Of a stretch of DNA of 64,000 nucleotides, positions 1,403 to 22,833 are shown in pieces. Under the pieces are notes generated by a model. The model was not told the origin of the DNA, ran no database searches, and saw only the letters and a program-made list of their open reading frames with translations. Where the stretch lies: the NCBI RefSeq assembly GCF_017744015.1, contig NZ_JAGHRA010000003.1, forward strand, positions 62,001-126,000, read 5' to 3'. The translations under genes and the position numbers were made by a program. Origin of the DNA: Paracoccus sp. R12_2 (lineage in GTDB: Bacteria > Pseudomonadota > Alphaproteobacteria > Rhodobacterales > Rhodobacteraceae). The first letter of the stretch is position 1. The number at the start of each line of letters is the position of its first letter.

Positions 1403-2130
1403 GTCTGCTTCTTTGACGAAATCGTTGCGGTCAGCCGGGCCATCAGCTCGGCGGCGGTATAGGCGGCGATCACCGCCGGGCGTTTGTCGGGTGAAAACCC
1501 CGCGCCGATCGGGGAGGTCAATGGCGCGGGGTCAAGGCCACGTTCACGCGCGAAACGGGCAAATTGCGCGCGCTTGGTGGCACTGCCGATCATGCCCACA
1601 TAGGCCAGATCGTTTCGGGCAAGGGCTTCGGCGGTCAGCAAGAAATCCAGCGCGTGATCATGGGTCACGATCACCACCGCGCTGCCGGGGGCGACCTCGC
1701 GGATCTGGGCCTCGGGCAAGGCGGTAAGCAGCGTGTCCAACCCCGGCGCCGCCTGGGCCAGTTCCTCGGGGCGGGTATCGATCAGCCGGGCATGCACGGG
1801 CAATGGTTGCAACGCCAGCGCCAGCGCGCGTCCGACATGACCTGCGCCGAAGACCAGCACCTTGGGGTGCGCTTCGGGTGTCGGCCCCTGGCGGTCCAGC
1901 AGCAACTGCACCCGGCCGCCGCAGCACTGGCCGATCTCGGGGCCAAGCGGGATGTCCATGCTTGCCTCGGCCTCGCCGCGCGCCAGCATCTGCCGGGCGC
2001 GGTCGATGGCCATGTATTCCAGCTGGCCGCCACCGATGGTGCCGGTCACCCGGTCTGCCGCAACGAACATTTCGGCGCCGGCGTCGCGCGGGGTCGACCC
2101 GCGCGCCGATATGACCCGGACCCGGATCAT
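1390..2130 (-). CDS. xdhC: Xanthine dehydrogenase accessory protein XdhC
   Basis: XdhC binds the molybdenum cofactor, promotes its sulfuration and delivers it to XdhB. The 246-residue protein shows the N-terminal XdhC/CoxI motif (RGSTPRDAGAEM, then GTIGGGQLE) and a C-terminal Rossmann-like half (VLVFGAGHVGRAL, then MIGSATKRAQF). It is shorter at the N-terminus than usual: the family normally carries some 15-20 residues before the RGS-PR motif. An in-frame TGA lies 12 codons upstream of the ATG with no start codon between, so the short start is forced. The ATG overlaps the xdhB stop (ATGA), so translation is probably coupled. Confidence 0.92.
   Translation of the reverse strand: MIRVRVISARGSTPRDAGAEMFVAADRVTGTIGGGQLEYMAIDRARQMLARGEAEASMDIPLGPEIGQCCGGRVQLLLDRQGPTPEAHPKVLVFGAGHVGRALALALQPLPVHARLIDTRPEELAQAAPGLDTLLTALPEAQIREVAPGSAVVIVTHDHALDFLLTAEALARNDLAYVGMIGSATKRAQFARFARERGLDPAPLTSPIGAGFSPDKRPAVIAAYTAAELMARLTATISSKKQTCNN

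Positions 2131-4435: not shown

Positions 4436-4439
<4 letters not shown>
2127..4439 (-). CDS. xdhB: Xanthine dehydrogenase large (molybdopterin) subunit XdhB
   Basis: Large subunit of bacterial xanthine dehydrogenase. It hydroxylates hypoxanthine and xanthine to urate and passes electrons to the iron-sulfur/FAD subunit. The 770-residue length is normal. Visible motifs are the molybdopterin-contacting GGGFGGKETQ and RGFGGPQG, the GTEMGQGLNTK segment, and near the C-terminus GEPPFMLG, which carries the catalytic glutamate. The start ATG overlaps the xdhA stop by the ATGA arrangement; a second in-frame ATG two codons later is also possible. It is the second gene of the xdhA-xdhB-xdhC-guaD operon. 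Confidence 0.97.
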
Positions 4440-5887
<1,448 letters not shown>

Positions 5888-8838: not shown

Positions 8839-8868
8839 AAAAAATTCCGACCGGCATCTACATGCCGG
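8839..8868 (-). terminator. Rho-independent terminator of hiuH-puuD
   Basis: On the reverse strand the stem CCGGCAT / ATGCCGG (8862-8868 with 8851-8857) has loop GTAG and contains the puuD stop codon. It is followed within a few bases by six T residues (8844-8839). This closes the hiuH-puuD transcript. Confidence 0.75.
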
Positions 8869-10111
8869 CCAGATCGGCCCCGCCGGCCTCGCGGAACCAG
8901 CGGATCACCTGCCGCCGTTCGTCGGCTTCCATGAAGCTGACATTCGCGGGCGGCATTGCATCGGTCAGTCCGGCCTGCACATAGATTTCGCGCGCGGCGC
9001 GCGCGATGTCGGCGGGGGTCTCGAGGAAGACCCCCTTCGGCGCATGATAGATGCCTTCGTACACCGGTTCGCGCGCATGGCACATCGAACAGCGCCCCAT
9101 GACGATGTCACTGACCTGATCAAACCCCTCTGCGTCGGCAAAGCGCTGCTCGATCGGCGACAGGACACGCGCCTCGGATTCCTCGTAGCTGTCCTGGTTG
9201 AGACCGATCGAGCTGAGCCACATCACCATGATGAACAGCACCGCCGTCACCGCCCATGTCCACCAAAGGTCGCCCTTGCGGGCATGCATGGTGTTGAAGA
9301 AGTGCCGGATCGTCACGCCCATCAGGAAGATCAGCGCCGCGATCAGCCAATTGTACTGGCTGGCGAAGGCAAGCGGATAGTGGTTCGACAGCATGAGGAA
9401 CACGACCGGCAGGGTCAGGTAGTTGTTATGCGTCGAGCGCAGCTTGGCGATCTTGCCGTATTTCGGATCGGGCGCCCGCCCGGCCTTCAGATCGGCAACG
9501 ACGATCCGCTGGTTCGGCATGATGACCAGAAACACGTTGGCGGTCATGATCGTCGCGGTGAACGCACCCAGATGCAGCAGCGCGGCGCGTCCGGTGAAGA
9601 CCTGGTCGTACCCCCAGCCCATCACGACCAGCGCGACGAACAAAAGCAGCATCAGCGTGGTCGGCGTCTCGCCCAGCTTGGACTTGCACAGCGTGTCATA
9701 GATCAGCCAGCCGATCGCCAGCGATCCGCCCGAGATCGCGATCGCCTGCCAGGTCGCCAGGTCCATCTTGGCCGGGTCGATCAGATACAGGTTCGCGCCG
9801 GCCCAGTAGGTGACCATCAGCAGCGCCGCGCCCGACAGCCAGGTGGCATAGCTTTCCCATTTGAACCAGGTCAGATGCTCGGGCATCCGTTCGGGCGCGA
9901 CCAGGTATTTCTGGATGTGATAGAAGCCGCCGCCATGGACCTGCCATTCCTCGCCATGCGCGCCCTTGGGCATGTTGGGGGCCTTGGTCAGACCAAGATC
10001 CAGCGCGACGAAGTAGAAGGAACTGCCGATCCACGCGATGGCGGTGATGACATGCAGCCAGCGGATCGCGAAGGCCAGCCATTCCCAGATGACGACATAA
10101 TCGGGAATCAT
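8858..10111 (-). CDS. puuD: Urate hydroxylase PuuD (membrane urate oxidase with cytochrome c domain)
   Basis: Oxidises urate to 5-hydroxyisourate and passes electrons through its own cytochrome c domain to the respiratory chain. The 417-residue protein starts with a membrane region of about eight helices (residues roughly 10-310), including the conserved RWLHVITAIAWIGSSFYF and HGGGFYHIQKY segments. It ends with a soluble cytochrome c domain with haem motif CSMCH at 341-345 and an AMPPANVSFM axial-Met region. It starts three bases after the hiuH stop, so the two are co-transcribed with hiuH first. This is the bacterial PuuD type, unrelated to cofactor-free uricase and to FAD-dependent HpxO. 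PuuD here should not be confused with the E. coli putrescine gene of the same symbol. Confidence 0.95.
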   Translation of the reverse strand: MIPDYVVIWEWLAFAIRWLHVITAIAWIGSSFYFVALDLGLTKAPNMPKGAHGEEWQVHGGGFYHIQKYLVAPERMPEHLTWFKWESYATWLSGAALLMVTYWAGANLYLIDPAKMDLATWQAIAISGGSLAIGWLIYDTLCKSKLGETPTTLMLLLFVALVVMGWGYDQVFTGRAALLHLGAFTATIMTANVFLVIMPNQRIVVADLKAGRAPDPKYGKIAKLRSTHNNYLTLPVVFLMLSNHYPLAFASQYNWLIAALIFLMGVTIRHFFNTMHARKGDLWWTWAVTAVLFIMVMWLSSIGLNQDSYEESEARVLSPIEQRFADAEGFDQVSDIVMGRCSMCHAREPVYEGIYHAPKGVFLETPADIARAAREIYVQAGLTDAMPPANVSFMEADERRQVIRWFREAGGADLAGM

Positions 10112-10114
10112 CGC

Positions 10115-10468
10115 TCAGCTCCCCCGATAGGTCGAAAACCCGAACGGCGAAATCAGCAGCGGGACGTGATAATGGTCCTGCTGCGACATGCCGAAGCGGA
10201 TCGGGATGATATCCAGGAAACGCGGAGTTTCGGCCGGCACGCCGGTCTTGTCCATCCACGCGCCGGCATGGAATTCCAACTCGTATGTGCCGGTCCGGAA
10301 CTGGTCTTCCGGCAGGATCTGCCGGTCGGTGCGGCCATCGGCATTGGTCGTAAGCCGCGCCAGTTCGGTGCGGTTGTCGCCGTCGCGGCGGTACAGGACC
10401 ACCTCCATGCCCTCGGCAGGTGTGCCGCGGGCGGTATCAAGAACATGGGTTGTCAGGTAACCCGGCAT
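10115..10468 (-). CDS. uraH: 5-hydroxyisourate hydrolase
   Basis: Transthyretin-related hydrolase that opens 5-hydroxyisourate to OHCU, the product taken by the UraD domain encoded at 20490-21896. The 117-residue protein has the N-terminal LTTHVLDTARG motif with its active-site His, the YHVPLLISPFGFSTY segment and the diagnostic C-terminal YRGS tetrapeptide. A GGGGAGG Shine-Dalgarno lies upstream of the ATG. It is the promoter-proximal gene of a uraH-puuD operon. Confidence 0.96.
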   Translation of the reverse strand: MPGYLTTHVLDTARGTPAEGMEVVLYRRDGDNRTELARLTTNADGRTDRQILPEDQFRTGTYELEFHAGAWMDKTGVPAETPRFLDIIPIRFGMSQQDHYHVPLLISPFGFSTYRGS

Positions 10469-10614: not shown

Positions 10615-10639
10615 AGACCCCCGCCAATGGCGAGGGTCT
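10615..10639 (-). terminator. Hairpin downstream of 8-oxoguanine deaminase gene
   Basis: AGACCC with CGCC pairs with GGCG and GGGTCT around a short AAT loop. It lies about 70-95 bases past the stop of the 8-oxoguanine deaminase gene and before the uraH promoter region. T-rich sequence follows only weakly on the reverse strand, so it could also be a regulatory hairpin. Confidence 0.45.
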
Positions 10640-10710: not shown

Positions 10711-12063
10711 TCAGCCTGCCAGCCGTGCGACCGCGCTTTTCGCGCGGCGTTGAAGATCGCGGGTATCGGCGGTCAGAAGACGATGATCATCGACCACCGC
10801 CCTGCCCCGCACATAGACCGCACGCGGGCGAACCGGGGCACAGAAGACCAGAGCGGCGACGGGGTCCCATTGGCCGGCGGCCGCAAGTTCGCCGACATCC
10901 CACAGCACCAGATCGGCCTGCATTCCGGGCATCAAGGCACCGATATCGCGGCGCCCCAGGACGCGTGCCCCGCCGCGCGTCGCGATCTCCAGCGCCTCGC
11001 GCGCACCAAGTGCGCCGGGCCCGTCGCGCAGACGCGCAACCAGCATCGCCTGCCGAGCCTCCAGCCCCAGATGGCTGCAATCATTGCTGGCCGATCCATC
11101 CACGCCCAACCCGACCGGCACACCCGCATCGCGCATCGCGCGGACCGGGGCGATGCCGCTGGCCAGACGCGAATTGGAACAGGGGCAATGCGCGACACCG
11201 GTGCCCGTCCGCGCGAACAGGCCGATCTCGTCGCCCGACAGCTTGACACAGTGGGCATGCCAGACATCCTCGCCGGTCCAGCCCAGGCTTTCGGCGTAAT
11301 CGCCCGGCAGCATGCCGAAATTCTCCAGCGAATAGCGGATATCCTCGTCATTCTCGGCCAGATGGGTGTGCAACCGCACGCCCTTCTCGCGCGCCAGAAC
11401 GGCGGCGTCACGCATCAGTTCGCGGCTGACCGAGAACGGCGAGCACGGGGCCAGCCCGACCTGAACCATCGCCCCCTCGGCTGCATCGTGATAGGCATCG
11501 ACGACACGTTCGCTGTCCTTCAGGATCGCGGTCTCGTCCTCGACCAGTTGATCGGGGGGCAAGCCGCCCTTGCTTTCGCCGATCGACATCGCGCCGCGCG
11601 TGGCGGTGAAGCGGATGCCGATATTCGCGGCCGCCTCGATGCTGTCATCCAGCCGCGACCCGTTGGGGTACATGTAGAGATGATCCGACGAGCAGGTGCA
11701 GCCTGACATCGCCAGTTCTGCCAGCCCGATTTCAGCGGACAGGCGGATGTCGTCGGGCGTCATCCGCGCCCAGATCGGGTACAGCGTCTTCAGCCAGCCG
11801 AACAATGCCGCATCCTGCGCCGCAGGGACCGCGCGGGTGAGGGTCTGGAACAGATGATGATGCGTGTTGACCAGTCCGGGCGTCACCACGCAGCCCTCGG
11901 CCTCGACCACCTGCGCATTGTCGCGCGGCAGGCCCTGGCCCGCCGCGACGATCTTTCCGTTCTGGATCAGGACATCGCCATTCGCGATCTCGCGGCGGTC
12001 GTCGTCCATGGTAACGACGACCTCGGCGCCCCTTATCAGCAGCCGATCAGATGTCGGCTGCAT
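10711..12063 (-). CDS. 8-oxoguanine deaminase (amidohydrolase)
   Basis: 450-residue amidohydrolase. The metal site includes NTHHHLFQ and HTHLAEN, then DVWHAHCVKL and GVDGSASNDCSHL. This GVDGSASND block with the APCSPFSVS segment matches 8-oxoguanine deaminases rather than guanine deaminase. The reaction gives urate directly from 8-oxoguanine, bypassing xanthine dehydrogenase. The start is taken at ATG 12063 with GAGGCGGG ahead of it; it overlaps the permease stop by 17 bases, so the two are coupled. Together with the permease it runs on from bhcD at the end of the bhc operon. An atrazine-type chlorohydrolase-like activity cannot be excluded from sequence alone. Confidence 0.85.
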   Translation of the reverse strand: MQPTSDRLLIRGAEVVVTMDDDRREIANGDVLIQNGKIVAAGQGLPRDNAQVVEAEGCVVTPGLVNTHHHLFQTLTRAVPAAQDAALFGWLKTLYPIWARMTPDDIRLSAEIGLAELAMSGCTCSSDHLYMYPNGSRLDDSIEAAANIGIRFTATRGAMSIGESKGGLPPDQLVEDETAILKDSERVVDAYHDAAEGAMVQVGLAPCSPFSVSRELMRDAAVLAREKGVRLHTHLAENDEDIRYSLENFGMLPGDYAESLGWTGEDVWHAHCVKLSGDEIGLFARTGTGVAHCPCSNSRLASGIAPVRAMRDAGVPVGLGVDGSASNDCSHLGLEARQAMLVARLRDGPGALGAREALEIATRGGARVLGRRDIGALMPGMQADLVLWDVGELAAAGQWDPVAALVFCAPVRPRAVYVRGRAVVDDHRLLTADTRDLQRRAKSAVARLAG

Positions 12064-13537
12064 GACCCGCCTCGCGCATTTCGGCCTCATCGACACTTGG
12101 TGCGCCATTGTAGAACCAGTTCAGCAGCACCGCAGTGATCGCGGCCAGCAGGATGCCCGAATGGATCAGCGGATGGATCGCGTGCGGCATCCACTGGTTG
12201 AAATGCGGCGCGATCATCGGGATCATGCCCATTCCGATCGAGATCGCCACGATGAACAGGTTGTGGCGGTTGCCCGCGAAATCCACGCGGCTGAGGATGC
12301 GCACCCCGGTCGCCGCAACCATGCCGAACATCACCAGCCCGGCGCCGCCCAGAACGGTGGTCGGCAGGCTTTCGACCAGCGCCCCCATCTTCGGGATCAG
12401 TCCCAGCACGATCATGATCGCGCCCCCCGCCACGCAGACATAGCGCGAGCGGATGCCGGTCACCCCGACCAGCCCGACATTCTGGCTGAAGGACGTATAG
12501 GGAAAGGTGTTGAACAACCCACCGATGGCCGTCCCCAAGCCGTCCGCCCGCAGACCGGCGGCCAGCGATTTCTGGGTGATGGGTTTCTTGCACATGTCGC
12601 CAAGCGCCAGGAACATCCCGGTGGATTCGATCATCGTGACCAGCATGACCAGAAGCATGGTCAGGATCATGATCGGATCAAAGGTCGGCATCCCGAAATG
12701 CAGCGGCTTGATCAGCGCGAACCATTGCGCCGAGGCCACCTTGTCGAAATGCATCATGCCCAGCATTGCCGCCGCCACGCCGCCGACCGCGATACCGACC
12801 AGAACGGCGATATTGGCAAGAAAGCCCTTGGCATAGCGCGACACGACCAGAATCGTGCCCAGCACCAGCAACGCGATCAGGATATTGCGGCCCGACGCGT
12901 AAAGCGGGTTCGGTACCGTCGCGGCCAAGGCCACGCTGGCGGGCACGTCGCCTGCAGCACGCGCGCTTTCCAGCCATGCGGCGGCTTCCGGATCGACGAC
13001 ATTTGGCGCGGTGGGACCGACCTGAAGCCCGAAGATCCAGTTGATGCCGATCGGCATCAGGCTGATCCCGATCGTCAGGATCAGCGTGCCTGTCACGACC
13101 GGCGGAAAGAACCGCAGCATCTTGCTGATGACCGGGGCGATCAGGATGCCGATGATCCCTGCCGCGATGATCGATCCGAACAGCGCCCGCGCGCCCTCGT
13201 GACCGGGCATCGAGGTGGCGATGGCCACCATAGGCCCGACCGACGCGAAGGTCACACCCATCATCACCGGAAGCTTGATGCCGAAATACTGCGTCGCGCC
13301 AAAGCTTTGGATGATCGACACGATTCCGCAGACGAACAGGTCTGCCGAGATCAGGAACGCGACCTCCTCGGGGGGCAGGTTCAGCGCCCGCCCGACGATC
13401 AGCGGAACCGCGATCGCGCCCGCATACATGACCAGCACGTGCTGGAAACCAAGGGTGATGAGCTTGGGTGCCGGCAGCACCTCATCGACGGCGTGAACCG
13501 TCGCCTCTCTACCGGCGTCATAGCTTGCATCAGACAT
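12047..13537 (-). CDS. NCS2-family purine (xanthine/urate-type) permease
   Basis: 496-residue polytopic membrane protein of the nucleobase:cation symporter-2 family, with 12-14 predicted helices. Family features include LGFQHVLVMYAGAIAVPLIV at the N-terminus, the FAGNRHN-type helix region and the FNTFPYTSFSQNVGLVGVTG segment characteristic of xanthine/uric acid transporters. Substrate is likely xanthine, urate or another oxopurine. A strong GGGAGGT Shine-Dalgarno precedes the ATG. Only 35 bases separate it from the bhcD stop and its own 3' end overlaps the 8-oxoguanine deaminase gene, so it appears to belong to the bhc transcript. Confidence 0.9.
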   Translation of the reverse strand: MSDASYDAGREATVHAVDEVLPAPKLITLGFQHVLVMYAGAIAVPLIVGRALNLPPEEVAFLISADLFVCGIVSIIQSFGATQYFGIKLPVMMGVTFASVGPMVAIATSMPGHEGARALFGSIIAAGIIGILIAPVISKMLRFFPPVVTGTLILTIGISLMPIGINWIFGLQVGPTAPNVVDPEAAAWLESARAAGDVPASVALAATVPNPLYASGRNILIALLVLGTILVVSRYAKGFLANIAVLVGIAVGGVAAAMLGMMHFDKVASAQWFALIKPLHFGMPTFDPIMILTMLLVMLVTMIESTGMFLALGDMCKKPITQKSLAAGLRADGLGTAIGGLFNTFPYTSFSQNVGLVGVTGIRSRYVCVAGGAIMIVLGLIPKMGALVESLPTTVLGGAGLVMFGMVAATGVRILSRVDFAGNRHNLFIVAISIGMGMIPMIAPHFNQWMPHAIHPLIHSGILLAAITAVLLNWFYNGAPSVDEAEMREAGHAADI

Positions 13538-13572
13538 AGCGGACCTCCCTTTCCACGAATGTCGGATTGAAA

Positions 13573-14535
13573 TCAGATCTCGACTTCGATGGCCTTTCCC
13601 TGTTGTTTCGCCAGTTCGACAACAGCGCCCGCGACCGCAAGATCCTGCAGACCGACGCCGGTGCCGTCAAAGATGGTGACTTCCGCATCGCCACGCCCCT
13701 CGTGATCGCCGGTGATAACCCGGCCTATCGCGGTGACGTCGCTGTCGGAAATCGTTTTCTGCGCCGCGGCGTGCTGGAATTCACCGATGCTGACCGATTG
13801 GGCAACCTCGTCAGTGAACAGCCGCGCCCGCCCGACCAGCGCCGGGTCAAGTTCCTGCTTGCCCTTGGTGTCGGTGCCCATGGCCGCGATATGGGTCGAA
13901 CCCTCTACATGCGCGTCCATCAGCAGCGGTTCGAACGCCGAGGTGATCGAGATGATCACGTCGGCCTCGGCCCCCAGGCGAGGCAGTTCGACCGCCTCGA
14001 AAGGCAGGCCCAGATCAGCCGCCGTATCGGCAAGGCGGGACAGCATCTCGGGATGCGGATTCCAGCCGATGACCTTCTCGAAGGTGCCGGTGCGGGCGGC
14101 TGCCCGCATCTGGAACGCGGACTGGTGTCCCGCGCCGATCATGCCCAGCACCTTGGCGCCCTTGGGTGCCAGATGCTTGATCGACACGGCACTGGCCGCC
14201 GCCGTGCGCAAGGCTGTCAGCAGGTTGCCCCCCACCGCTGCCGCGACACGACCGGTGTCGGGATCGAACAGGAACACGGTGGACTGATGGTTGATCAGCC
14301 CGTGTTTCTGGTTGTTCGGCCAATAGCCGCCCGCCTTCAGCCCCAGCGTCTTGCCCGCGCGGTCGAAACCGCCCTTGAAGCCATACAGCGCGTCTTCATA
14401 CCCGATGGCCTCGCGGACCACCGGGAAGTTGTAGGCGTCATCCGAGGCCATGGCGGCGAAGACCCGCTCGACCGCGTCGAATGCCGCTTCGGGCGTCATC
14501 AGCCCGGCGATTTCCTTCTCAGGGACGACCCACAT
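13573..14535 (-). CDS. bhcD: Iminosuccinate reductase BhcD (ornithine cyclodeaminase family)
   Basis: Fourth enzyme of the beta-hydroxyaspartate cycle: reduces iminosuccinate to L-aspartate with NAD(P)H, regenerating the amino donor for BhcA. The 320-residue protein belongs to the ornithine cyclodeaminase/mu-crystallin family, with the KAGGYWPNN substrate region and a Rossmann motif MIGAGHQSAFQM. By homology alone it could be called ornithine or alanine dehydrogenase; the assignment rests on its place after bhcC, bhcB and bhcA. The start is set at ATG 14535, which overlaps the bhcC stop (ATGA); an upstream in-frame start would need to lie inside bhcC. Confidence 0.9.
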   Translation of the reverse strand: MWVVPEKEIAGLMTPEAAFDAVERVFAAMASDDAYNFPVVREAIGYEDALYGFKGGFDRAGKTLGLKAGGYWPNNQKHGLINHQSTVFLFDPDTGRVAAAVGGNLLTALRTAAASAVSIKHLAPKGAKVLGMIGAGHQSAFQMRAAARTGTFEKVIGWNPHPEMLSRLADTAADLGLPFEAVELPRLGAEADVIISITSAFEPLLMDAHVEGSTHIAAMGTDTKGKQELDPALVGRARLFTDEVAQSVSIGEFQHAAAQKTISDSDVTAIGRVITGDHEGRGDAEVTIFDGTGVGLQDLAVAGAVVELAKQQGKAIEVEI

Positions 14536-15698
14536 CAGTAAGCCTTCCCGCGCGCGCTGACCGGCCACAGGGTCTCGACCTTGCCGTTGCGCACGCCGAC
14601 ATACCAGTCGTGCACATTGCAGGTCGGGTCACAATGGCCCGGCACCAGCCGCAGCTTGTCATTGACCTGCAACACGCCCTGCGGATCGTCCACGACGCCG
14701 TGTTCGTCGCTGCACTTGATGTATTTCACGTCGTCACGGCCATAGATGAAGGGCAGCCCGCTATCGACCGACTGGGCCTTCAGACCGGCGTCGACGATGG
14801 CCTTGTCGGCCTTCGCATGGCTCATCACCGAGGTCAGGATGAACAGCGCGTTTTCCCATTCGCCCTGGTCGATGCGGTTGCCGTCCTTGTCCAGGATGCG
14901 GCCATAGTCGGCATCCATGAAGGCATAGCTGCCGCACTGCAATTCGTTGTAAACGCCCGAATTGCTTTCAAAGTAATAGCTGCCGGTGCCACCGCCCGAG
15001 ACCAGTTCCGGCTCCAGCCCGGCAGCCTTCAGCGCGTCCACGGCTTCCTTGACTTGCGCGATGGCAGCGTCCAGCTTGGCCTTGCGGTCGTCAAAGCTGT
15101 CCATGTGCTGCATCGCGCCCTGATAGGCTTGGATGCCGGTGAATTTCAGCCCCGGCGCCGCATCGACGGCACGCGCGATCTCGACGACCGCATCGGCTGT
15201 CTTGACCCCGCATCGACCTGCGCCGCAGTCGATTTCCACGAACACCTCGATCTGGGTGCCGTGCTTTTCCGCCGCCGCCGACAGATCGGCGACATTGGCC
15301 ACATCGTCCACGCAGACGATGATGCGGCTGCCCAGCTTGGGCAGGCGGGCCAGACGGTCGATCTTCGCCGGGTCGCGGACCTGGTTGCTGACCAGCACAT
15401 CCTTGATGCCGCCGCGCACGAAAACCTCGGCCTCGCTGACCTTCTGGCAGCAGACGCCAATGGCGCCGCCCAGGGATTCCTGCAGCTTCTGGACATCGAC
15501 AGATTTGTGCATCTTGCCGTGGCTGCGGTGACGCATGCCGTGGGCCTTGGCATAATCGCCCATCTTCCTGACGTTCCGCTCCAGCGCGTCCAGGTCCAGG
15601 ATCAGGCAGGGCGTCTGGATGTCCTTTTCATCCATGCCCGGCAGCGCGGGCACGTCGAAGCCGACCTCGAGACCTTCGAAATTGGTGGGTGCGTTCAT
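14535..15698 (-). CDS. bhcC: Beta-hydroxyaspartate aldolase BhcC (D-threonine aldolase fold)
   Basis: Condenses glycine with glyoxylate to (2R,3S)-beta-hydroxyaspartate in the cycle. The 387-residue protein is a fold-type III PLP enzyme: TPCLILDLDALERN near residue 30, the HRSHGKMHKS segment with the PLP lysine, and near the C-terminus GHCDPTCNVHDWYVG, the divalent-metal site of the D-threonine/3-hydroxy-D-aspartate aldolase family. A GAGGAGGG Shine-Dalgarno precedes the ATG. It lies 12 bases after bhcB and overlaps bhcD. Confidence 0.93.
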   Translation of the reverse strand: MNAPTNFEGLEVGFDVPALPGMDEKDIQTPCLILDLDALERNVRKMGDYAKAHGMRHRSHGKMHKSVDVQKLQESLGGAIGVCCQKVSEAEVFVRGGIKDVLVSNQVRDPAKIDRLARLPKLGSRIIVCVDDVANVADLSAAAEKHGTQIEVFVEIDCGAGRCGVKTADAVVEIARAVDAAPGLKFTGIQAYQGAMQHMDSFDDRKAKLDAAIAQVKEAVDALKAAGLEPELVSGGGTGSYYFESNSGVYNELQCGSYAFMDADYGRILDKDGNRIDQGEWENALFILTSVMSHAKADKAIVDAGLKAQSVDSGLPFIYGRDDVKYIKCSDEHGVVDDPQGVLQVNDKLRLVPGHCDPTCNVHDWYVGVRNGKVETLWPVSARGKAY

Positions 15699-15710
15699 GG
15701 ATAGCCCTCC

Positions 15711-16673
15711 TCAGATCCAGGGCAGCTTGTCGAGATCGACATTGCCGCCGGTGATGATGATGCCGACACGTTTGCCGGCGAATGCGTCGCGGTTCTTCAG
15801 GATCGTGGCCAGCGGCACTGCGCTGCTGGGTTCCATCACCACGCGCAGATGTTTCCAGGTCAGTTTCATCGCCTCGATGATCTCGGCATCCGAGGCGGTG
15901 TAGATCTCGGACACGTGGTTGCTGACGAAATGCCAGGTCAGGTCCTTCAGCGGCACCAGCAGACCGTCGGCGATGGTCTTGGGCGCGTCATCGGCGATGA
16001 TGTGCCCGGCCTTGAAGCTGCGATAGGCGTCGTCCGCCTGTTCGGGTTCAGCCGCGATCACCTGCGTTTCGGGGGCCAGCGTCGCCAGCGTCAGGCAGGT
16101 GCCCGAGATCATCCCGCCACCGCCGATCGGGGCTACGACCATGTCCAGACCGTCGGTCTGTTCCATGAATTCCTTGGCGCAGGTGCCCTGCCCCGCAATC
16201 ACGCGCGGGTCGTTATAGGGATGCACGAAATCGCCGCCGGTCTCGGCCTGGACCTGCGCAAATGTCGCCTCGCGCGAACTGGTCGAGGGATCGCATTCGG
16301 TGATCTTGCCGCCATAGCGGCGAACCGTGTCCTTCTTGGCCTGTGGGGCAGTGCGCGGCATCACGACGTTGCAGGGAATGCCCCGCCGCATCGCCGCATA
16401 GGACAGGCAGGACGCGTGGTTGCCCGAGGAATGCGTCGCCACACCCTTGGCGGCCTGCGCCTCATCCAGCCCGAACACCGCATTGCTGGCGCCGCGGACC
16501 TTGAAGGCCCCAGGCTCCTGGAAGTTTTCGCATTTGAAGAACAGCTGCGCACCGGTCAGATCGTTGAGGTAGTCCGACACGCGCACCGGGGTCCGCCGGA
16601 TATGCGGCTTGATCCGTTCATGCGCGGCCAGCATGTCCTGGTAGGTGGGAATATACATCTCGGCGTCCTTCAT
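15711..16673 (-). CDS. bhcB: Beta-hydroxyaspartate dehydratase BhcB
   Basis: PLP-dependent dehydratase converting beta-hydroxyaspartate to iminosuccinate in the cycle. The 320-residue serine/threonine dehydratase-like protein has the PLP lysine in EPGAFKVRGASNA (about residue 58), the SSGNHAS loop and the Gly-rich PIGGGGMISG phosphate-binding loop, without a regulatory ACT domain. Annotation as generic threonine dehydratase or serine racemase is possible by homology; the cluster decides. ATG 16673 shares one base with the bhcA TGA stop; a GTG one codon upstream is an alternative start. Confidence 0.92.
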   Translation of the reverse strand: MKDAEMYIPTYQDMLAAHERIKPHIRRTPVRVSDYLNDLTGAQLFFKCENFQEPGAFKVRGASNAVFGLDEAQAAKGVATHSSGNHASCLSYAAMRRGIPCNVVMPRTAPQAKKDTVRRYGGKITECDPSTSSREATFAQVQAETGGDFVHPYNDPRVIAGQGTCAKEFMEQTDGLDMVVAPIGGGGMISGTCLTLATLAPETQVIAAEPEQADDAYRSFKAGHIIADDAPKTIADGLLVPLKDLTWHFVSNHVSEIYTASDAEIIEAMKLTWKHLRVVMEPSSAVPLATILKNRDAFAGKRVGIIITGGNVDLDKLPWI

Positions 16674-17863
16674 CACGCGGCGGCCCGTTCTGCGCCCGCA
16701 ACGCTTTGGCGGTAATGTTCCTGCGCGGCGGCAACGCCGCTGCCCAGGGTGATCGGCAGGCCCAGATCGGCCATGACCATTTCCGCCGTGGCGATCCCCG
16801 ACAGCGCCATGACATCGGTCAGGCTGCCCAGATGGCCGATGCGGAACACCTTGCCGGCGACATCGCCCAACCCGGTGCCGAATGCCACGCCATAGCTGTT
16901 CAGCGCGTGGCTGACGATCTTGTTGGCGTCAAAGCCCTCGGGGACGCGGATCGCGCTGACGCTGTCGGAATAGAGGTCGGGCCGGACGGCGCACAGCGAC
17001 AGCCCCCAGGCGCCGACCGCCTTGCGCACACCCTCGGCGATGCGGTGATGACGGGCAAAGACGTTTTCCAGCCCCTCGTCCAGCAGCATGTCGCAGGCGA
17101 CGTTCAGCCCGTTCAGCAGGCCGACCGGCGGCGTATAGGGAAAGCCGTTGGCGGCATAGCCCTTGGCCATGTCGCGAATGTCGAAGAAGGTGCGCGGCAG
17201 CTTGGCCGTCTCGACCGCGGCCATCGCCTTGGGCGAAAAGCCGACGATGGCCAGTCCCGGCGGCAGCATGAAGCCCTTCTGACTGCCGGTCACGGCGATA
17301 TCGACACCCCATTCATCCATGCGGAAATCATAGCAGGCGATCGAGCTGACGCCGTCCACGAACAGCAGCGCCGGATGACCGGCTGCGTCCAGCGCGCGGC
17401 GGACCGCGGCGATGTCGCTGCGAACGCCGGTCGCGGTCTCGTTATGCGTGGCCAGAACGACCTTGATCTCGTGGTTCTTGTCGGCGGTCAGGATTTCCTC
17501 GAAGCGGTCGGCGGGAACGCCGTCGCCCCATTCTGCCATGACGACCTGCACGTCCAACCCGTGGCGCTGGCACATGTCGATCCAGCGATGGCTGAACATG
17601 CCGTTGCGCGCGGCCAGAACCTTGTCGCCGGGCGACAACGTGTTGGTCAGCGCGGTTTCCCAGCCGCCGGTGCCGGTCGAGGGGAACACGAAGACCTGGC
17701 CGTCGGTGGTTTTCAGGACCTTCTTGACGCCTTCCAGCGCTGGATGAAGGATCTTGCCGAACACCGGGCTGCGATGGTCGATCGTGGGCATGTCCACGGC
17801 CTTGCGCAGCACTTCGGGAATGTTGGTCGGGCCGGGAATGAAAACGGGATTCTGGCTGGTCAT
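16673..17863 (-). CDS. bhcA: Aspartate-glyoxylate aminotransferase BhcA
   Basis: First enzyme of the beta-hydroxyaspartate cycle: transaminates glyoxylate to glycine with L-aspartate, giving oxaloacetate, the net product of the cycle. The 396-residue class V (fold type I) aminotransferase has PSTGTGGWETAL at residues 61-72, ATHNETATG near 138-146 and the PLP lysine K196 in TGSQKGFML. It resembles serine-glyoxylate and ureidoglycine-glyoxylate aminotransferases; position as first gene of bhcABCD supports the BhcA call. An AGGAGGAG Shine-Dalgarno precedes the ATG. The divergent bhcR lies 187 bases upstream. Confidence 0.94.
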   Translation of the reverse strand: MTSQNPVFIPGPTNIPEVLRKAVDMPTIDHRSPVFGKILHPALEGVKKVLKTTDGQVFVFPSTGTGGWETALTNTLSPGDKVLAARNGMFSHRWIDMCQRHGLDVQVVMAEWGDGVPADRFEEILTADKNHEIKVVLATHNETATGVRSDIAAVRRALDAAGHPALLFVDGVSSIACYDFRMDEWGVDIAVTGSQKGFMLPPGLAIVGFSPKAMAAVETAKLPRTFFDIRDMAKGYAANGFPYTPPVGLLNGLNVACDMLLDEGLENVFARHHRIAEGVRKAVGAWGLSLCAVRPDLYSDSVSAIRVPEGFDANKIVSHALNSYGVAFGTGLGDVAGKVFRIGHLGSLTDVMALSGIATAEMVMADLGLPITLGSGVAAAQEHYRQSVAGAERAAA

Positions 17864-17920
17864 GGCGACTCCTCCTGCGGGTTATTGACGAATTTACGCG
17901 CTGCGGCGCAATGTCACAAT

Positions 17921-17994
17921 TTTTCTGGAAACGTTTTTCGATAAGCGGAAAGATGCTGGAAAATCACGCCTAAACATGGGCTTGCGTTTTTCCA
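17921..17994. promoter_or_regulatory. Candidate BhcR operator region between bhcA and bhcR
   Basis: The bhcA-bhcR gap holds two inverted-repeat elements. The first is TTTCTGGAAA at 17922-17931. The second has arms TGGAAAA (17957-17963) and TTTTCCA (17988-17994), 24 bases apart, each followed on the inner side by a CGC/GCG match with a two-base offset. Repeated TGGAAA units in a divergent IclR-regulator promoter fit an operator for that regulator. No footprint or promoter boxes can be proven from sequence. Confidence 0.5.
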
Positions 17995-18050: not shown

Positions 18051-18857
18051 ATGGCTGAACCTCAACGCAAACGCGGCCGCCCGCGCAGTGCGCCCGAGGC
18101 AGCGGGCACCATCCAGGCATTGGATCGCGCGCTGGATATCCTCGACCTGCTGGCCGCGCATCCCGGCCTGACGCTGTCCGAGATCGCCGAAAAGATGCAG
18201 CAGTCGCCATCGACCGTGCATCGCGTCCTGCACACCTTGGCCGCGCGCGGCGTGGCCGAAACTGATCTGGCCACGCAGACCTGGCATATCGGCCCGGCGA
18301 CCTTCCGGCTGGGATCCGCCTTCATGCGCCGGTCTGGCATCGTGGAACGCGCCCGCCCGGTGCTGCGCGCCTTGATGGAACACACCGGCGAGACGGCCAA
18401 TCTGGGCATCCTGAATGGCGATGCCGTGCTGTTCGTCAGTCAGGCCGAAACGCACGAGACGATCCGAGCGTTCTTTCCGCCCGGCACCCGCTCGCCTCTG
18501 CATGCCTCGGGGATCGGCAAGGCGTTGCTGGCGTTCGGTCGTGCCGATACGCTGCGAATGTTGCTGGACCATGTGCCGCTGAAACGGTTCACCGACCGGA
18601 CCCTGACAACGGCCGAGGCGTTGCAGGAAGACCTGTCGCGGATCAGGCATCGCGGCTTTTCCTTCGACGACGAGGAAAAGACCCGCGGCATGCGCTGCAT
18701 CGCGGCCCCGGTCTTTGACCTGACCGGCGAGGCCGTCGCCGGGATCAGCGTCAGCGGCCCCAGCCACCGGATCGGGCATGAACATGTCAAGACGCTGGGG
18801 GCGGCGGTGGCCGCTGCGGCGGGCGAGCTGTCACAGGCGTTGGGCGGACAGGGCTGA
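18051..18857 (+). CDS. bhcR: IclR-family regulator BhcR
   Basis: 268-residue IclR regulator: a basic N-terminal arm (QRKRGRPRSAP), a winged helix-turn-helix around residues 20-85 (LSEIAEKMQQSPSTVHRVLHTL) and a C-terminal effector domain. In Paracoccus the regulator divergent to bhcABCD is BhcR, which controls the cluster and responds to glyoxylate; that role is transferred here by context. ATG 18051 is chosen because GGGGGGAT lies just upstream and the basic arm begins there; an in-frame start 75 bases earlier would add residues unlike the family. It ends toward azgA, with a hairpin between them. Confidence 0.92.
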   Translation: MAEPQRKRGRPRSAPEAAGTIQALDRALDILDLLAAHPGLTLSEIAEKMQQSPSTVHRVLHTLAARGVAETDLATQTWHIGPATFRLGSAFMRRSGIVERARPVLRALMEHTGETANLGILNGDAVLFVSQAETHETIRAFFPPGTRSPLHASGIGKALLAFGRADTLRMLLDHVPLKRFTDRTLTTAEALQEDLSRIRHRGFSFDDEEKTRGMRCIAAPVFDLTGEAVAGISVSGPSHRIGHEHVKTLGAAVAAAAGELSQALGGQG

Positions 18858-18968: not shown

Positions 18969-20270
18969 TCAGTGGCCGCCGAAGAAGGCGAACTTGACGA
19001 CGAACAGGGCAGCCACGATCCACGTCGCCGCGTGAACCTCGCGGGCGCGGCCGGTCAGCAGCTTGATCAGCGCATAGCTGATGAAACCGAACGCAAGTCC
19101 CGTGGCGATCGAGTAGGTGAACGGCATGGCCAGCGCGGTCAGCACGGCGGGTGCCGTCTCGGTCACATCGTCCCATTTGATCTCTGCCAGTTCGCGCACC
19201 ATCAGCGTGGCCACATACAGCAGTGCAGGCGCCGTCGCATATGCGGGCACCGCACCGGCAAGCGGCGCGAAGAATGTCGCCAGCAGGAACAGGCCTGCGA
19301 CGACCAGCGCGGTCAGACCGGTCCGACCGCCCGCCTGAACGCCCGAGGCGCTTTCGACATAGGCGGTGGTCGAGGAGGTGCCCAGAAGCGAACCGGCGGT
19401 GATCGCGGTGGAATCCGCCATCAGGGCGCGCGACAGCCCCTTGTTCTGATGGACCGGCCCCTCGGTCAGCAGCCCGGCCCGCTTGGCCACGCCGATCAGC
19501 GTGCCGGTGGCGTCGAACACCTCGACCAGCACCATCACCAGGATGACGTGGAAGATGCCGTAATGCAGCGCCCCCAGCAGATCCATCTGCAGGAAGGTCG
19601 GCGCGATCGAGGGCGGCATCGACATCACGCCCCTGAACTCGCTGACGCCAAGCAAAATCGAGGCGATGGTGATGACGAGAATACCGATCAGGATGGATCC
19701 CTTCACCTTCAGCGCGTCCAGCGCCACGATGATGAAGAAACCGGCGATGGTCAGCAGCGTGCCCGTATTGGTCAGATCACCCAGCCCGACCAGCGTCGCA
19801 GGGTTGTCCACCACCAGCCCCGAGCTTTGCATCGCGATGATGCCCAGGAACATCCCGATCCCGGCGGCAACCCCGCTGCGCATCGACATCGGAATGCCGG
19901 CGATCAGCCAGCGACGGATGCCGGTGGCGGACAGGAACAGGAAGATCAGGCCGCTGATGAAGACGGCACCCAGCGCCTGTTGCCAGGTAAAGCCCATCGC
20001 ACCGACCACGGTGAACGCGAAAAACGCGTTCAGGCCCATCCCCGGCGCCATGCCGATCGGCCAGTTCGCCCAGAGCCCCATGATGGCCGAGCCGATGGCG
20101 GCGGCCAGGCAAGTGGCAATGAAGACGGCATCCCGATCCATCCCGGTCGAGGACAGGATGTCGGGGTTTACGAAAATGATATAGGCCATGGTCAGGAAAG
20201 TCGTGATCCCGGCGATCACTTCCGTCCGGACATTGCTGCCATGCTCGGCAAGCTTGAAGTAGCGTTCCAT
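18969..20270 (-). CDS. AzgA-type guanine/hypoxanthine/adenine permease
   Basis: 433-residue polytopic membrane protein of the AzgA subfamily of purine permeases. It shows the N-terminal block MERYFKLAEHGSNVRTE, then EVIAGITTFLTMAYIIFVNP, the GLNAFFAFTVVG segment and the SSTTAYVESASGVQAGGRTG motif, all AzgA hallmarks. It imports 6-amino/6-oxo purines with a cation. The start is ATG 20270, with GGAGGA six bases ahead. It is divergent from the allantoinase gene and so probably shares a regulatory region with it; together they link uptake with ring breakdown. Confidence 0.92.
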   Translation of the reverse strand: MERYFKLAEHGSNVRTEVIAGITTFLTMAYIIFVNPDILSSTGMDRDAVFIATCLAAAIGSAIMGLWANWPIGMAPGMGLNAFFAFTVVGAMGFTWQQALGAVFISGLIFLFLSATGIRRWLIAGIPMSMRSGVAAGIGMFLGIIAMQSSGLVVDNPATLVGLGDLTNTGTLLTIAGFFIIVALDALKVKGSILIGILVITIASILLGVSEFRGVMSMPPSIAPTFLQMDLLGALHYGIFHVILVMVLVEVFDATGTLIGVAKRAGLLTEGPVHQNKGLSRALMADSTAITAGSLLGTSSTTAYVESASGVQAGGRTGLTALVVAGLFLLATFFAPLAGAVPAYATAPALLYVATLMVRELAEIKWDDVTETAPAVLTALAMPFTYSIATGLAFGFISYALIKLLTGRAREVHAATWIVAALFVVKFAFFGGH

Positions 20271-20361
20271 TGATAATCCTCCGCGCGGCTCTCCCTTGCC
20301 GCCATTGCCAAACCTTATGGGCGACGAGAGCCCGCTCACAATCAGCGCCAACCCGCAAGTC

Positions 20362-20380: not shown

Positions 20381-20489
20381 CAACGCCGGATCTTCGTCGA
20401 TTCGTTGATACAGAATTTTGCTTCTGCCCGCTTGCCCGGCAAGCCCTTGCGCGGTTTGCTGTCATCGAACAAAGCCGGAGGAGAGGCAG

Positions 20490-21896
20490 ATGCGCTACAG
20501 CCGCGACATGCGAGGATATGGCGAAACCACCCCGGACCCGAAATGGCCCGGCGGTGCGAAGATCGCCGTGCAGATCGTCATGAACTACGAGGAAGGCGGT
20601 GAGAACAGCATCGAGCACGGCGACAAGGCGTCCGAGGCTTTCCTGTCCGAAATCATCGGCGCCCAGCCCTGGCCCGGTCAGCGCCACTGGAACATGGAAT
20701 CGATCTACGATTACGGCGCACGGTCGGGGTTCTGGCGGCTGCACCGGATGCTGAAGGATATTCCGATCACGGTCTACGGCGTCGCGACCGCATTGGAGCG
20801 CGCGCCCGAGCAGGTCGCCGCGATGCAGGATGCAGGCTGGGAAATCGCGACTCATGGCCTGAAATGGATCGACTACAAGGACGTCCCGCGCGAGGTCGAG
20901 GCCGATCATATCGCGCAGGCGGTCGCGCTGCACACACAGATCACCGGCGAACGACCCTATGGATTCTATCAGGGCCGCACCTCGATGAACACGGTCGAAC
21001 TGGGCTGCGAGGAAGGCGGCTTTGCCTATCTGGCCGACACCATCGCCGACGACCTGCCCTATTGGCATGTTCATCAGGGCCGGCCGCAGTTGATGGTGCC
21101 CTATACGATGGACGCCAACGACATGCGGTTTTCCAGCGGCCAGGGCTTCGGGACCGGTGTCGAGTTCTTCGACTATCTGTGCGACAGCTTCGACATTCTT
21201 TATGCGGAAGGTCAGGCGGGCGCACCCAAGATGATGTCCATCGGGCTGCATTGCCGCCTGGCGGGGCGACCGGGCCGGGCGATGGCGATCCAGCGGTTCC
21301 TGGACCACTGCCGCGCGCATGAGGGGGTCTGGTTCGCCTCGCGCCTCGACATCGCGCGGCACTGGGCCGAAACGCATCCGCACCGCGAACGGCTGCAACC
21401 CTCGAAGATGGATCGCGATGATTTCGTGGCCAAGTTCGGCGGCGTCTATGAGCATTCGCCCTGGGTTGCCGAACGGGTCTGGGATGCCGAAATGGGCGCC
21501 GTTCACGACAGCGCCAAGGGGCTTGCCCGGCGGATGGCGCAGATCTTCCGCAGCGCCGACGATCAGGACCGTCTGGGCGTGCTGGTCGCTCACCCCGATC
21601 TGGCGGGCAAGCTGGCCGCGGCAAAGCAGCTGACGGCTGAAAGCACGTCCGAACAGGCCAGCGCCGGGCTGGATGCGTTGACCGATGAGGAACGCGCCGA
21701 ATTCACCCGCCTGAACGACGCCTACACGGCCAAGCACGGCTTCCCGTTCATCATCGCGGTGCGCGACTATGACAAGCGCGGCATCCAGGATGCCATGCAG
21801 GCGCGGATCGACAACGACACCACGACGGAACGCGGCAAGGCCGAACAGCAGGTCACGCGCATCGCGGAACTGCGGCTGAACGACATCCTGAAATGA
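20490..21896 (+). CDS. puuE: PuuE allantoinase fused to OHCU decarboxylase (UraD) domain
   Basis: 468-residue fusion. Residues about 1-300 are a PuuE-type allantoinase of the polysaccharide-deacetylase fold (RDMRGYGETTPDPKWPGG, then EIATHGLKWIDY and YGFYQGRTSMNT), a metal-independent enzyme converting allantoin to allantoate. Residues about 310-468 are an OHCU decarboxylase domain (DRDDFVAKFGGVYEHSPWVA, LVAHPDLAGK, STSEQASAGLD, FPFIIAVRDYDKRG), which makes (S)-allantoin. One polypeptide thus does two successive steps after UraH. ATG 20490 follows GGAGGAGAGG. allE lies 43 bases downstream in the same direction. Confidence 0.95.
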   Translation: MRYSRDMRGYGETTPDPKWPGGAKIAVQIVMNYEEGGENSIEHGDKASEAFLSEIIGAQPWPGQRHWNMESIYDYGARSGFWRLHRMLKDIPITVYGVATALERAPEQVAAMQDAGWEIATHGLKWIDYKDVPREVEADHIAQAVALHTQITGERPYGFYQGRTSMNTVELGCEEGGFAYLADTIADDLPYWHVHQGRPQLMVPYTMDANDMRFSSGQGFGTGVEFFDYLCDSFDILYAEGQAGAPKMMSIGLHCRLAGRPGRAMAIQRFLDHCRAHEGVWFASRLDIARHWAETHPHRERLQPSKMDRDDFVAKFGGVYEHSPWVAERVWDAEMGAVHDSAKGLARRMAQIFRSADDQDRLGVLVAHPDLAGKLAAAKQLTAESTSEQASAGLDALTDEERAEFTRLNDAYTAKHGFPFIIAVRDYDKRGIQDAMQARIDNDTTTERGKAEQQVTRIAELRLNDILK

Positions 21897-21939
21897 ACGG
21901 TCCATCCCGCAGGGATCGTTGCCAGAATCGAGGTTAACC

Positions 21940-22833
21940 ATGACCCATACTCCGCCGCATGGCGCCCCGACCGGCGATCCTGCATCCGTCACCACGGCCC
22001 CGCAGCAGGCAGGCTCTTACGCGGGTCCGGTTGCCGGACTGCCGCCGCAGACCGGGCTGACGACCGATACCGCCGTCTTCACCGAGGCCTATGCCGTCAT
22101 CCCGCGCACCGTCATGCGCGACATCGTGACCAGCTATCTGCCCGGCTGGACCGGCATGCGGATGTGGATGCTGGCCCGGCCGCTGTCGGGCTTTGCCGAG
22201 ACGTTCAGCCAATACATCGTGGAACTGGCCGAGGGCGGCGGCAGCGACGCGCCCGACGACGACCCGCAGATCCAGCACGCGATCTTCGTGACCGGCGGCG
22301 AACTGCGCGTTACCATCGCCGGCAAGCAGCATCTGCTGCGTCCGGGCGGCTTCGCCTATGTGCCGGCGGGCACCGAATGGTCGGTCCGCAACACCACTCC
22401 GGGCGAGACCGGCTTTCACTGGTGGCGCAAGCGCTGGCAGCCTTGCGCGGGCGTGGACAAGCCCGATCCGATCGTCGCGCAGGAACAGGACATCGCGCCG
22501 TCGCCGATGGTCGACACCGACGGGGCATGGGCCACGACGCGGTTCATGGATCCCGCCGATCTGCGCCACGACATGCATATCACCGTGGTCACGTTCAAGC
22601 CGGGCGGGTCGATCCCGTTTGCCGAAACGCATGTGATGGAACACGGGCTGTTCGTCATCGAGGGCAAGGCGGTCTATCGGCTGAACCGCGACTGGGTCGA
22701 GGTCGGTCCGGGCGATTTCATGTGGCTGCGCGCGTTCTGCCCGCAGGCCTGCTATGCGGGCGGGCCGGGGCCGTTCCGGTATCTGCTCTACAAGGACGTG
22801 AATCGGCACGCGCCGATGTGGCCCAACCGGTGA
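21940..22833 (+). CDS. allE: (S)-ureidoglycine aminohydrolase (bicupin)
   Basis: Releases ammonia from (S)-ureidoglycine to give (S)-ureidoglycolate, the compound that is then split to glyoxylate and urea. The 297-residue protein is a bicupin of the YlbA/AllE family: first cupin around residues 60-150 (HAIFVTGGELRVTI, FAYVPAGTEW), second around 190-285 with the probable Mn site in ETHVMEHGLFVIEGKAVY. The GAGG site ahead of ATG 21940 fixes the start. The neighbouring allantoate amidohydrolase and ureidoglycolate lyase are not in the window. Confidence 0.93.
   Translation: MTHTPPHGAPTGDPASVTTAPQQAGSYAGPVAGLPPQTGLTTDTAVFTEAYAVIPRTVMRDIVTSYLPGWTGMRMWMLARPLSGFAETFSQYIVELAEGGGSDAPDDDPQIQHAIFVTGGELRVTIAGKQHLLRPGGFAYVPAGTEWSVRNTTPGETGFHWWRKRWQPCAGVDKPDPIVAQEQDIAPSPMVDTDGAWATTRFMDPADLRHDMHITVVTFKPGGSIPFAETHVMEHGLFVIEGKAVYRLNRDWVEVGPGDFMWLRAFCPQACYAGGPGPFRYLLYKDVNRHAPMWPNR

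Follow-up and report, generated by a model that had tools for sequence, protein, structure and literature searches.

The beta-hydroxyaspartate cycle (BHAC), encoded by the bhc genes, has been studied as a route for the use of algal glycolate. In the locus considered here the gene neighborhood of this cycle points instead, or also, to purines, which raises the question of whether the uptake of a purine compound, its breakdown and the use of the resulting glyoxylate are encoded and controlled together. The locus lies in a stretch of 64,000 nucleotides (nt; hereafter the window) of Paracoccus sp. R12_2 (assembly GCF_017744015.1, contig NZ_JAGHRA010000003.1, positions 62,001 to 126,000), located in contig C33 of a draft genome of 4.07 Mb, and its nearest named relatives by bhc genes are Paracoccus. 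We consider it likely that bhcABCD, a permease of the UacT type and an 8-oxoguanine deaminase form one operon under the regulator BhcR, which would link urate import and breakdown to the bhc cycle. Co-transcription, induction, permease substrate and flux are all proposed here from gene identities, gene order and conservation.

Organization of the bhc locus

The six genes of the row are intact, each scores above its NCBIfam cut-off, and they are read from the minus strand in the order bhcA, bhcB, bhcC, bhcD, NCS2 permease and 8-oxoguanine deaminase, with bhcR divergent:

18051 to 18857, plus strand: bhcR, IclR-family regulator, divergent (NF045644, 413.2 bits, cut-off 350; longest open reading frame (ORF) from 17976)
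17917 to 17938, minus strand: putative BhcR-box element (GAAANNNTTTYCAGAAAAATTG type) upstream of bhcA, conserved in 61 of 69 intergenic stretches
16673 to 17863, minus strand: bhcA, aspartate-glyoxylate aminotransferase (NF045640, 768.5 bits, cut-off 650)
15711 to 16676, minus strand: bhcB, beta-hydroxyaspartate dehydratase (NF045641, 584.5 bits, cut-off 550)
14535 to 15698, minus strand: bhcC, beta-hydroxyaspartate aldolase (NF045642, 783.4 bits, cut-off 690)
13573 to 14535, minus strand: bhcD, iminosuccinate reductase (NF045643, 576.8 bits, cut-off 500; longest ORF from 14568, start set through comparison with relatives)
12047 to 13537, minus strand: UacT-like NCS2 permease, probably a urate:H+ symporter (TIGR03173, 518.2 bits, cut-off 414)
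10711 to 12063, minus strand: 8-oxoguanine deaminase (NF006055, 696.1 bits, cut-off 532; longest ORF from 12108)
10615 to 10639, minus strand: terminator-like hairpin after the deaminase (11 pairs, 8 of them G-C, T-rich tail)

Adjacent bhcA, bhcB, bhcC and bhcD genes, each above its curated cut-off, together with the divergent bhcR make this a BHAC gene cluster, and the predicted function of BhcABCD is the conversion of glyoxylate to oxaloacetate. A preliminary description of the window had reported the six genes as co-directional and either overlapping or no more than 35 nt apart, and this was borne out with gene starts set by comparison with relatives: bhcA and bhcB overlap by 1–4 nt, bhcB and bhcC are 12 nt apart, bhcC and bhcD overlap by 1 nt, bhcD and the permease gene are separated by 35 nt (the widest gap of the row), and the permease and deaminase genes overlap by 17 nt with the deaminase start at 12063, as in near relatives. 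The same description proposed a single transcript, which a promoter or terminator between bhcD and the permease would split. Both were looked for. A pattern scan of the window yielded no terminator-like site between the two genes, and a scan for the sigma-70 consensus pattern only yielded no promoter-like site on the minus strand between 8700 and 21000, its two matches being both on the plus strand (2.4 from shuffled sequences). The short gaps and the lack of terminator- or promoter-like sites at the bhcD-permease junction in these scans are consistent with one likely transcript from bhcA to the deaminase. A weak terminator-like site of 5 pairs is present inside the permease gene (13127–13115). 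In relatives, the distance between bhcD and the permease gene is 26–41 nt in 17 of the 18 named clade loci that carry the permease there (18 of 19 when locus L031 is also counted) and 302 nt in L068, and none of 20 relatives' junctions contains a terminator-like site after bhcD. The bhcD frame of L031 (11164–12451) is broken in the contig of a metagenome-assembled genome (MAG), which may be an assembly error.

The hairpin at 10639–10615 is probably the end of the operon. The purine genes that had been listed for the window (xdh, puuD, uraH, puuE-uraD and allE) are real, but uraH-puuD are not part of the same unbroken run, as they begin 242 nt past the deaminase and behind this hairpin. Two arrangements are found in Paracoccus. 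In one group, uraH is located 8–33 nt behind the deaminase, and a GC-rich hairpin follows uraH in 7 of 10 loci (excluding L046, in which another permease comes after uraH). In the group of the window, uraH is located 122–242 nt from the deaminase and forms a pair with puuD, 3 nt away. Between the groups, the operon would thus have kept its middle and changed where it ends.

The permease and the deaminase

The permease, described earlier as a purine permease, turned out to resemble the urate transporter UacT. Its class follows from a comparison with two E. coli members of the NCS2 family, UacT (urate), with which it shares 50% identity, and XanQ (xanthine), with which it shares 28%. The VTF and SFSQNVGLV stretches are common to the window permease and UacT, and we take the T of VTF to be a mark of urate specificity. 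The permease is therefore assigned to the UacT type and is probably a urate importer. The deaminase, in addition to exceeding the curated cut-off of the 8-oxoguanine deaminase family, matches the solved enzymes of PDB entries 3hpa (E 6.6e-173) and 7ww2 (E 5e-170) over most of its length. Because the permease is closest to UacT, the genes added to bhcABCD center on urate; the permease would import this compound and the deaminase would produce it, so that both would feed the urate pool.

Conservation of the gene order within Paracoccus

The window was compared with 19 named loci of its clade; L031, L037, L081 and L092 were left out, being either a broken MAG copy or of another type. The first gene after bhcD is the permease in 18 of these relatives and the deaminase in one (P. 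yeei, L046, at 59 nt), which with the window makes 19 and 1 of 20 loci. As a control for chance, the nearest gene beyond bhcR in the same 20 loci belongs to 8 families, the largest with 8 members; these families come from a simple ORF caller, and two singletons, ORFs of 97 and 128 amino acids, may be spurious. On a quick BhcABCD tree with SH-aLRT support only, which comprises 58 loci and the window (62 long loci minus those without four full bhc genes), the tight permease order requires 2 changes, which may be read as one gain and a loss in P. yeei, the order then marking one Paracoccus clade. The order is also present in a strain of the species used for studies of the cycle: in P. DENITRIFICANS (P. 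denitrificans) HAMBI_2443, bhcABCD is followed in line by the permease (41 nt from bhcD), the deaminase, uraH and puuD, as reconstructed by tblastn and ORF calls from an unannotated record. The annotated genomes of P. ferrooxidans and Paracoccus sp. SMMA_5_TC share this order, with bhcD and the permease 39 and 44 nt apart, then a 1-nt overlap and then 17 nt. The comparison of Paracoccus gene orders suggested in the preliminary description therefore showed the order to be conserved, but as a trait of a Paracoccus clade that includes HAMBI_2443 and not as something special to this genome.

Throughout the genus, bhcC is found above cut-off in 75 of 121 genomes and uraH in 119. Among the 75, uraH is on the same strand and at most 6 kb downstream of bhcC in 53 (a count that says nothing of the genes in between), at 13.9 kb in one, and not near in 21. 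A follow-up covered 20 stretches from 19 genomes, 18 of which are among these 21. The permease still follows bhcD in 4 of the genomes without a nearby uraH, and xdh, guaD, allA or puuD are nearby in 8 more. The notion that an unlinked uraH means the absence of a purine link was rejected on account of these 12 genomes, and in all a purine gene is near bhc in at least 66 of the 75 bhcC-bearing Paracoccus genomes. GlcD was tried as a genus marker of glycolate use and rejected: all 121 genomes have a match of at most 457 bits, and none reaches the cut-off of 567.9. As GlcD does not discriminate, glcF was used as the glycolate marker.

Some individual loci deserve mention. In L128 (2005–10464), glcD-glcF are located beside bhcR, an arrangement unique among the 20 Paracoccus stretches. 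In P. xiamenensis (L081), bhc genes of a separate lineage on the tree are surrounded by allA, guaD, azgA and xdh, and L138 has the same set. A contig labelled Spirulina (L033) carries a bhcC 91% identical to that of the window and perhaps is a contaminant from an associated bacterium.

Linkage beyond Paracoccus

The named loci are the best 80 of 567, and since they are the best matches the sample is biased to the window's kin; the counts below are from the 60 with full flanks, the 20 short-flank loci having been left out. The query alignment was used without L026 (stop in the translation) and L028 (24% identity). At least two purine genes are present within 10 kb of bhc in 20 of 21 Paracoccus loci and in 20 of 39 others, some genera being counted more than once among the latter, and glcD or glcF in 0 of 21 and 2 of 39, respectively. 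For any urate-pathway gene within 10 kb of bhc, the tree requires 9 changes.

A draw of 149 genomes from 148 genera of the family contained bhcC in 78 (cut at about 499 bits, with BhcC matches of 362 bits or less, including a partial one in G030, excluded), 60 of them above the curated cut-off. Of the 78, 74 carry allA, and in 28 of these 74 the gene lies no more than 10 kb from bhcC, being downstream and on the opposite strand in 27 of the 28; by our own arithmetic, about 0.4 of 74 would be expected from genome size alone. For glcF, the only comparison gene, these figures are 73 of 78 and 0 of 73, with one case at 19 kb. A hand count restricted to the 60 genomes above the curated cut-off gives 24 of 57 for allA and 0 of 57 for glcF. 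The association of bhc with purine genes is thus wider than first claimed, reaching the genus and the family.

The linkage also occurs on plasmids, with bhcC matches in 152 plasmid records (34 of these below 60% identity). In a Defluviimonas plasmid (L124), bhcD is followed at 50 nt by an NCS1 nucleobase permease (11246–12691), a different permease at the place that the NCS2 permease takes in Paracoccus, with allE on the far side of bhcR; in a Pseudosulfitobacter plasmid, the surroundings of bhc include xdhC, a permease, guaD and allE. A Rhodophyticola strain has been described as showing no glycolate uptake in the part of the report consulted (PMC10499878). In a MAG of this genus (L070), which is not from that strain, five urate-pathway genes are located by bhc.

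BhcR and its putative operator

In P. denitrificans, a palindromic BhcR site is predicted upstream of the bhcA −35 region, and BhcR activates the bhc promoter upon glyoxylate, though glyoxylate weakens its binding in vitro (sections of PMC11323563). In the loci compared here, an element of 22 nt situated about 75–100 nt before bhcA is found at up to 4 mismatches in 61 of 69 bhcR-bhcA intergenic stretches, and these 61 stretches were used to build a matrix for operator scoring. This conserved element is AT-rich, is present in Rhodobacterales and Rhizobiales loci, and is a candidate BhcR operator. At up to 3 mismatches it has a single match in the window's own genome, at the bhc promoter, and, across the 80 loci plus the window, every matrix match above 17.1 falls at the bhc promoter. 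The best matrix scores in the uraH, puuE and xdhA promoters of the window are negative (p 0.18–0.65). Control of other purine genes by BhcR through a shared site in this genome was therefore dropped, the lone match being that at the bhc promoter. The simple palindrome TKGAAANNNTTTCMA has 3 matches in the window against 2.09 expected, no more than chance. With the operator-like site occurring once in the genome, BhcR would reach the permease and deaminase genes only by read-through from bhcABCD.

Outside Paracoccus, a weak best match (p≤0.05 against shuffles) occurs in 4 of 11 divergent puuE-uraH promoters, as compared with 1 of 6 lysR-puuD and 2 of 16 lysR-xdhA promoters, and a wider BhcR regulon is possible there. 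The weak matches at puuE-uraH intergenic regions are in L066, L070, L090 and L053, which are roseobacter-type loci.

From purines to glyoxylate in this genome

Genes for xanthine dehydrogenase (xdhABC), guaD, puuD, uraH, a puuE-uraD fusion and an allE-type gene are all within the window:

119 to 1402, minus strand: guaD, guanine deaminase (TIGR02967, above cut-off)
1390 to 2130, minus strand: xdhC (TIGR02964, above cut-off)
2127 to 4439, minus strand: xdhB (TIGR02965, above cut-off)
4436 to 5887, minus strand: xdhA (TIGR02963, above cut-off)
8858 to 10111, minus strand: puuD, membrane urate hydroxylase, 3 nt after uraH (PF06181 Urate_ox_N, 460.5 bits)
10115 to 10468, minus strand: uraH, hydroxyisourate hydrolase, probably the next unit in this genome (TIGR02962, 126.1 bits, cut-off 87.45)
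18969 to 20351, minus strand: AzgA-like purine permease, named by resemblance (Pfam Xan_ur_permease, PF00860, 183.2 bits)
20418 to 21896, plus strand: puuE-uraD fusion, allantoinase / OHCU decarboxylase (TIGR03212 and TIGR03164, above cut-off)
21919 to 22833, plus strand: allE-type ureidoglycine aminohydrolase, possibly bifunctional (NF008373, 473.7 bits; NF040771, 465.9 bits; both above cut-off)

The earlier claim that purine breakdown ends in glyoxylate holds insofar as the pathway genes xdh, puuD, uraH, uraD, puuE, allE and allA are all present in the genome, but the glyoxylate-releasing allA is not in the window: it is located on another contig (C6, 74833–75291) and scores above the Pfam cut-off. 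The window AllE exceeds the cut-off of NF040771, a model of a bifunctional enzyme. A search for gcl in this genome gave no match above cut-off. Unrelated to the bhc locus, a gene at 26496–27845 has weak cytochrome P450 matches, none above cut-off, and is located near the amino acid carrier gene agcS.

Proposed mechanism and alternative explanations

In the proposed pathway, the operon would be read from the bhcA promoter under BhcR. Urate would enter the cell through the permease or arise from 8-oxoguanine, and would be broken down to glyoxylate by PuuD, UraH, UraD, PuuE, AllE and AllA. Glyoxylate would then act on BhcR and thereby raise both the bhc cycle, predicted to convert two molecules of glyoxylate into one of oxaloacetate, and the urate importer. 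In this way glyoxylate, in which purine breakdown ends, would increase both the supply of substrate and the capacity to assimilate its carbon. Since the signal from glycolate is the same as that from urate, glycolate, too, should induce urate import.

Several observations weigh against the one-operon proposal or narrow it. The hairpin after the deaminase has a counterpart in one (L031) of 5 relatives from the window's group, and in the 20 clade loci the deaminase is missing in 4 and the permease is missing from its place in 1. No purine gene was seen near bhc in 9 of the 75 genus genomes. Five of the nine were inspected, namely a 3-kb contig, the genome with glcD-glcF by bhcR (L128), one with one of its two copies covered, and two more; of the others, G189, G149 and G177 fall outside the stretches inspected, and no bhc gene was matched in the G198 stretch at the thresholds used. 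A second bhc copy in one genome (G229, L131) is also without purine genes, as are the surroundings of bhc in P. marcusii and P. cavernae (L092), in 18 of 39 full-flank loci outside Paracoccus, and in the plasmid record of Ruegeria pomeroyi DSS-3. In the genome of the window, allA scores below the NCBIfam equivalog cut-offs, and allantoicase gave no match in a search in which no control rang; with allC outside the search, the possibly bifunctional AllE is the candidate for the allantoate step. Moreover, this genome encodes malate synthase G and carries glcDEF, of which glcF scores above its cut-off and the other two genes below; the bhc cycle can therefore serve glycolate and is not the sole glyoxylate sink.

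An alternative, which is possible although we judge it rather unlikely, is that the same operon exists for nitrogen supply or detoxification (or the clearance of oxidized guanine), the bhc cycle just removing leftover glyoxylate with a minor gain of carbon. Urate contains four nitrogens and only two of its carbons are released as glyoxylate, a stoichiometry in keeping with a nitrogen source. This alternative also predicts an identical gene order, has malate synthase G available as another sink, and accommodates an enzyme of the 8-oxoguanine type, which suits clearance as well as feeding. However, detoxification needs no urate importer on the same transcript, and the permease by bhcD in Paracoccus and, separately, the NCS1 permease in the Defluviimonas plasmid point to uptake.

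It is unlikely that the permease and deaminase genes are transcribed from a separate promoter within the last part of bhcD and respond to purines via another regulator, their closeness to bhc being one of place only. In favor of this, a gene for a LysR regulator adjoins xdhA in the window, the promoter scan was limited to the sigma-70 consensus, and L068 has 302 nt between bhcD and the permease, but the gaps of 26–41 nt in 18 of 19 relatives, the lack of terminator-like sites in the 20 bhcD junctions and an order kept across the clade argue for read-through from bhcD. Somewhat less probable still is that the permease and the deaminase act on a compound other than urate and 8-oxoguanine, such as isocytosine or another oxidized base. 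The specificity of NCS2 members is hard to judge from sequence, and a paper on isocytosine deaminase names 8-oxoguanine deaminase 14 times in the text available (PMC6186785); against this stand the closer identity to UacT than to XanQ, the common VTF and SFSQNVGLV stretches and the uraH that follows in 53 of 75 genus genomes. Finally, a passive linkage, in which purine and bhc genes joined by chance or through one transfer and then stayed without functional tie, is very improbable, since the tight Paracoccus order may be read as a single origin but the 9 tree changes for any urate-pathway gene, the 20 of 39 full-flank loci outside Paracoccus with at least two purine genes and the 28 of 74 genomes with linked allA, where about 0.4 would be expected, speak against it.

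Beyond the single operon, we tentatively suggest, as a possibility and no likelihood, that the bhc cycle in Alphaproteobacteria is, judged by its genomic linkage, first of all a pathway for purine carbon and only second one for algal glycolate, which would enter through genes located apart from bhc, and that BhcR of Paracoccus forms a self-amplifying loop in which glyoxylate of either source leads to urate import. Purines are also released by phytoplankton. If the suggestion holds, cells that meet photorespired glycolate would also prepare for nucleobases, and one regulator would join the carbon of two kinds of exudate. P. denitrificans, for which deletions of bhcABCD and bhcR exist (described in the consulted sections of PMC11323563), is suited for testing this directly.

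Comparison with known systems

The closest described locus is the BHAC cluster bhcR-bhcABCD of P. denitrificans, which is like that of the window in its four enzyme genes, the divergent BhcR and the palindromic site predicted upstream of bhcA (PMC11323563, in part). It differs in that the consulted parts of this and related papers describe four enzyme genes and glycolate, and the main text of PMC11323563 contains the words permease and deaminase 0 times each; in P. denitrificans HAMBI_2443 itself, the permease and deaminase genes adjoin bhcD. A search of the open-access literature, which did not extend to the 2019 Nature paper, where these genes may be shown, or to supplements, found no report of a bhc-purine operon. 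The window deaminase is like 7ww2 and the amidohydrolase 3hpa in sequence and has bhc genes as neighbors, and E. coli uacT, unlike the window permease, is not adjacent to glyoxylate genes.

The gcl row of E. coli (gcl-hyi-glxR-allW-allB-ybbY-glxK, by allR) is one operon under AllR. As in the window, it brings together a glyoxylate-using pathway, importers (the allantoin transporter AllW and the putative purine transporter YbbY) and a ureide enzyme (AllB), with the glycerate pathway where the window has the bhc cycle and allantoin where it has urate. Glyoxylate is the effector of AllR in the texts consulted (PMC10163214; PMC11323563), and AllR is a repressor whereas BhcR is an activator (PMC11323563). 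The window locus does not belong to the AllR/gcl regulon, as its BhcR scores 162.7 bits where the AllR cut-off is 406 and its genome has no gcl above cut-off. The likeness would thus be one of logic and not of membership, and the AllR/gcl operon appears to be the nearest known parallel to an operon in which glyoxylate would call up both its own use and the import of the compound from which it arises.

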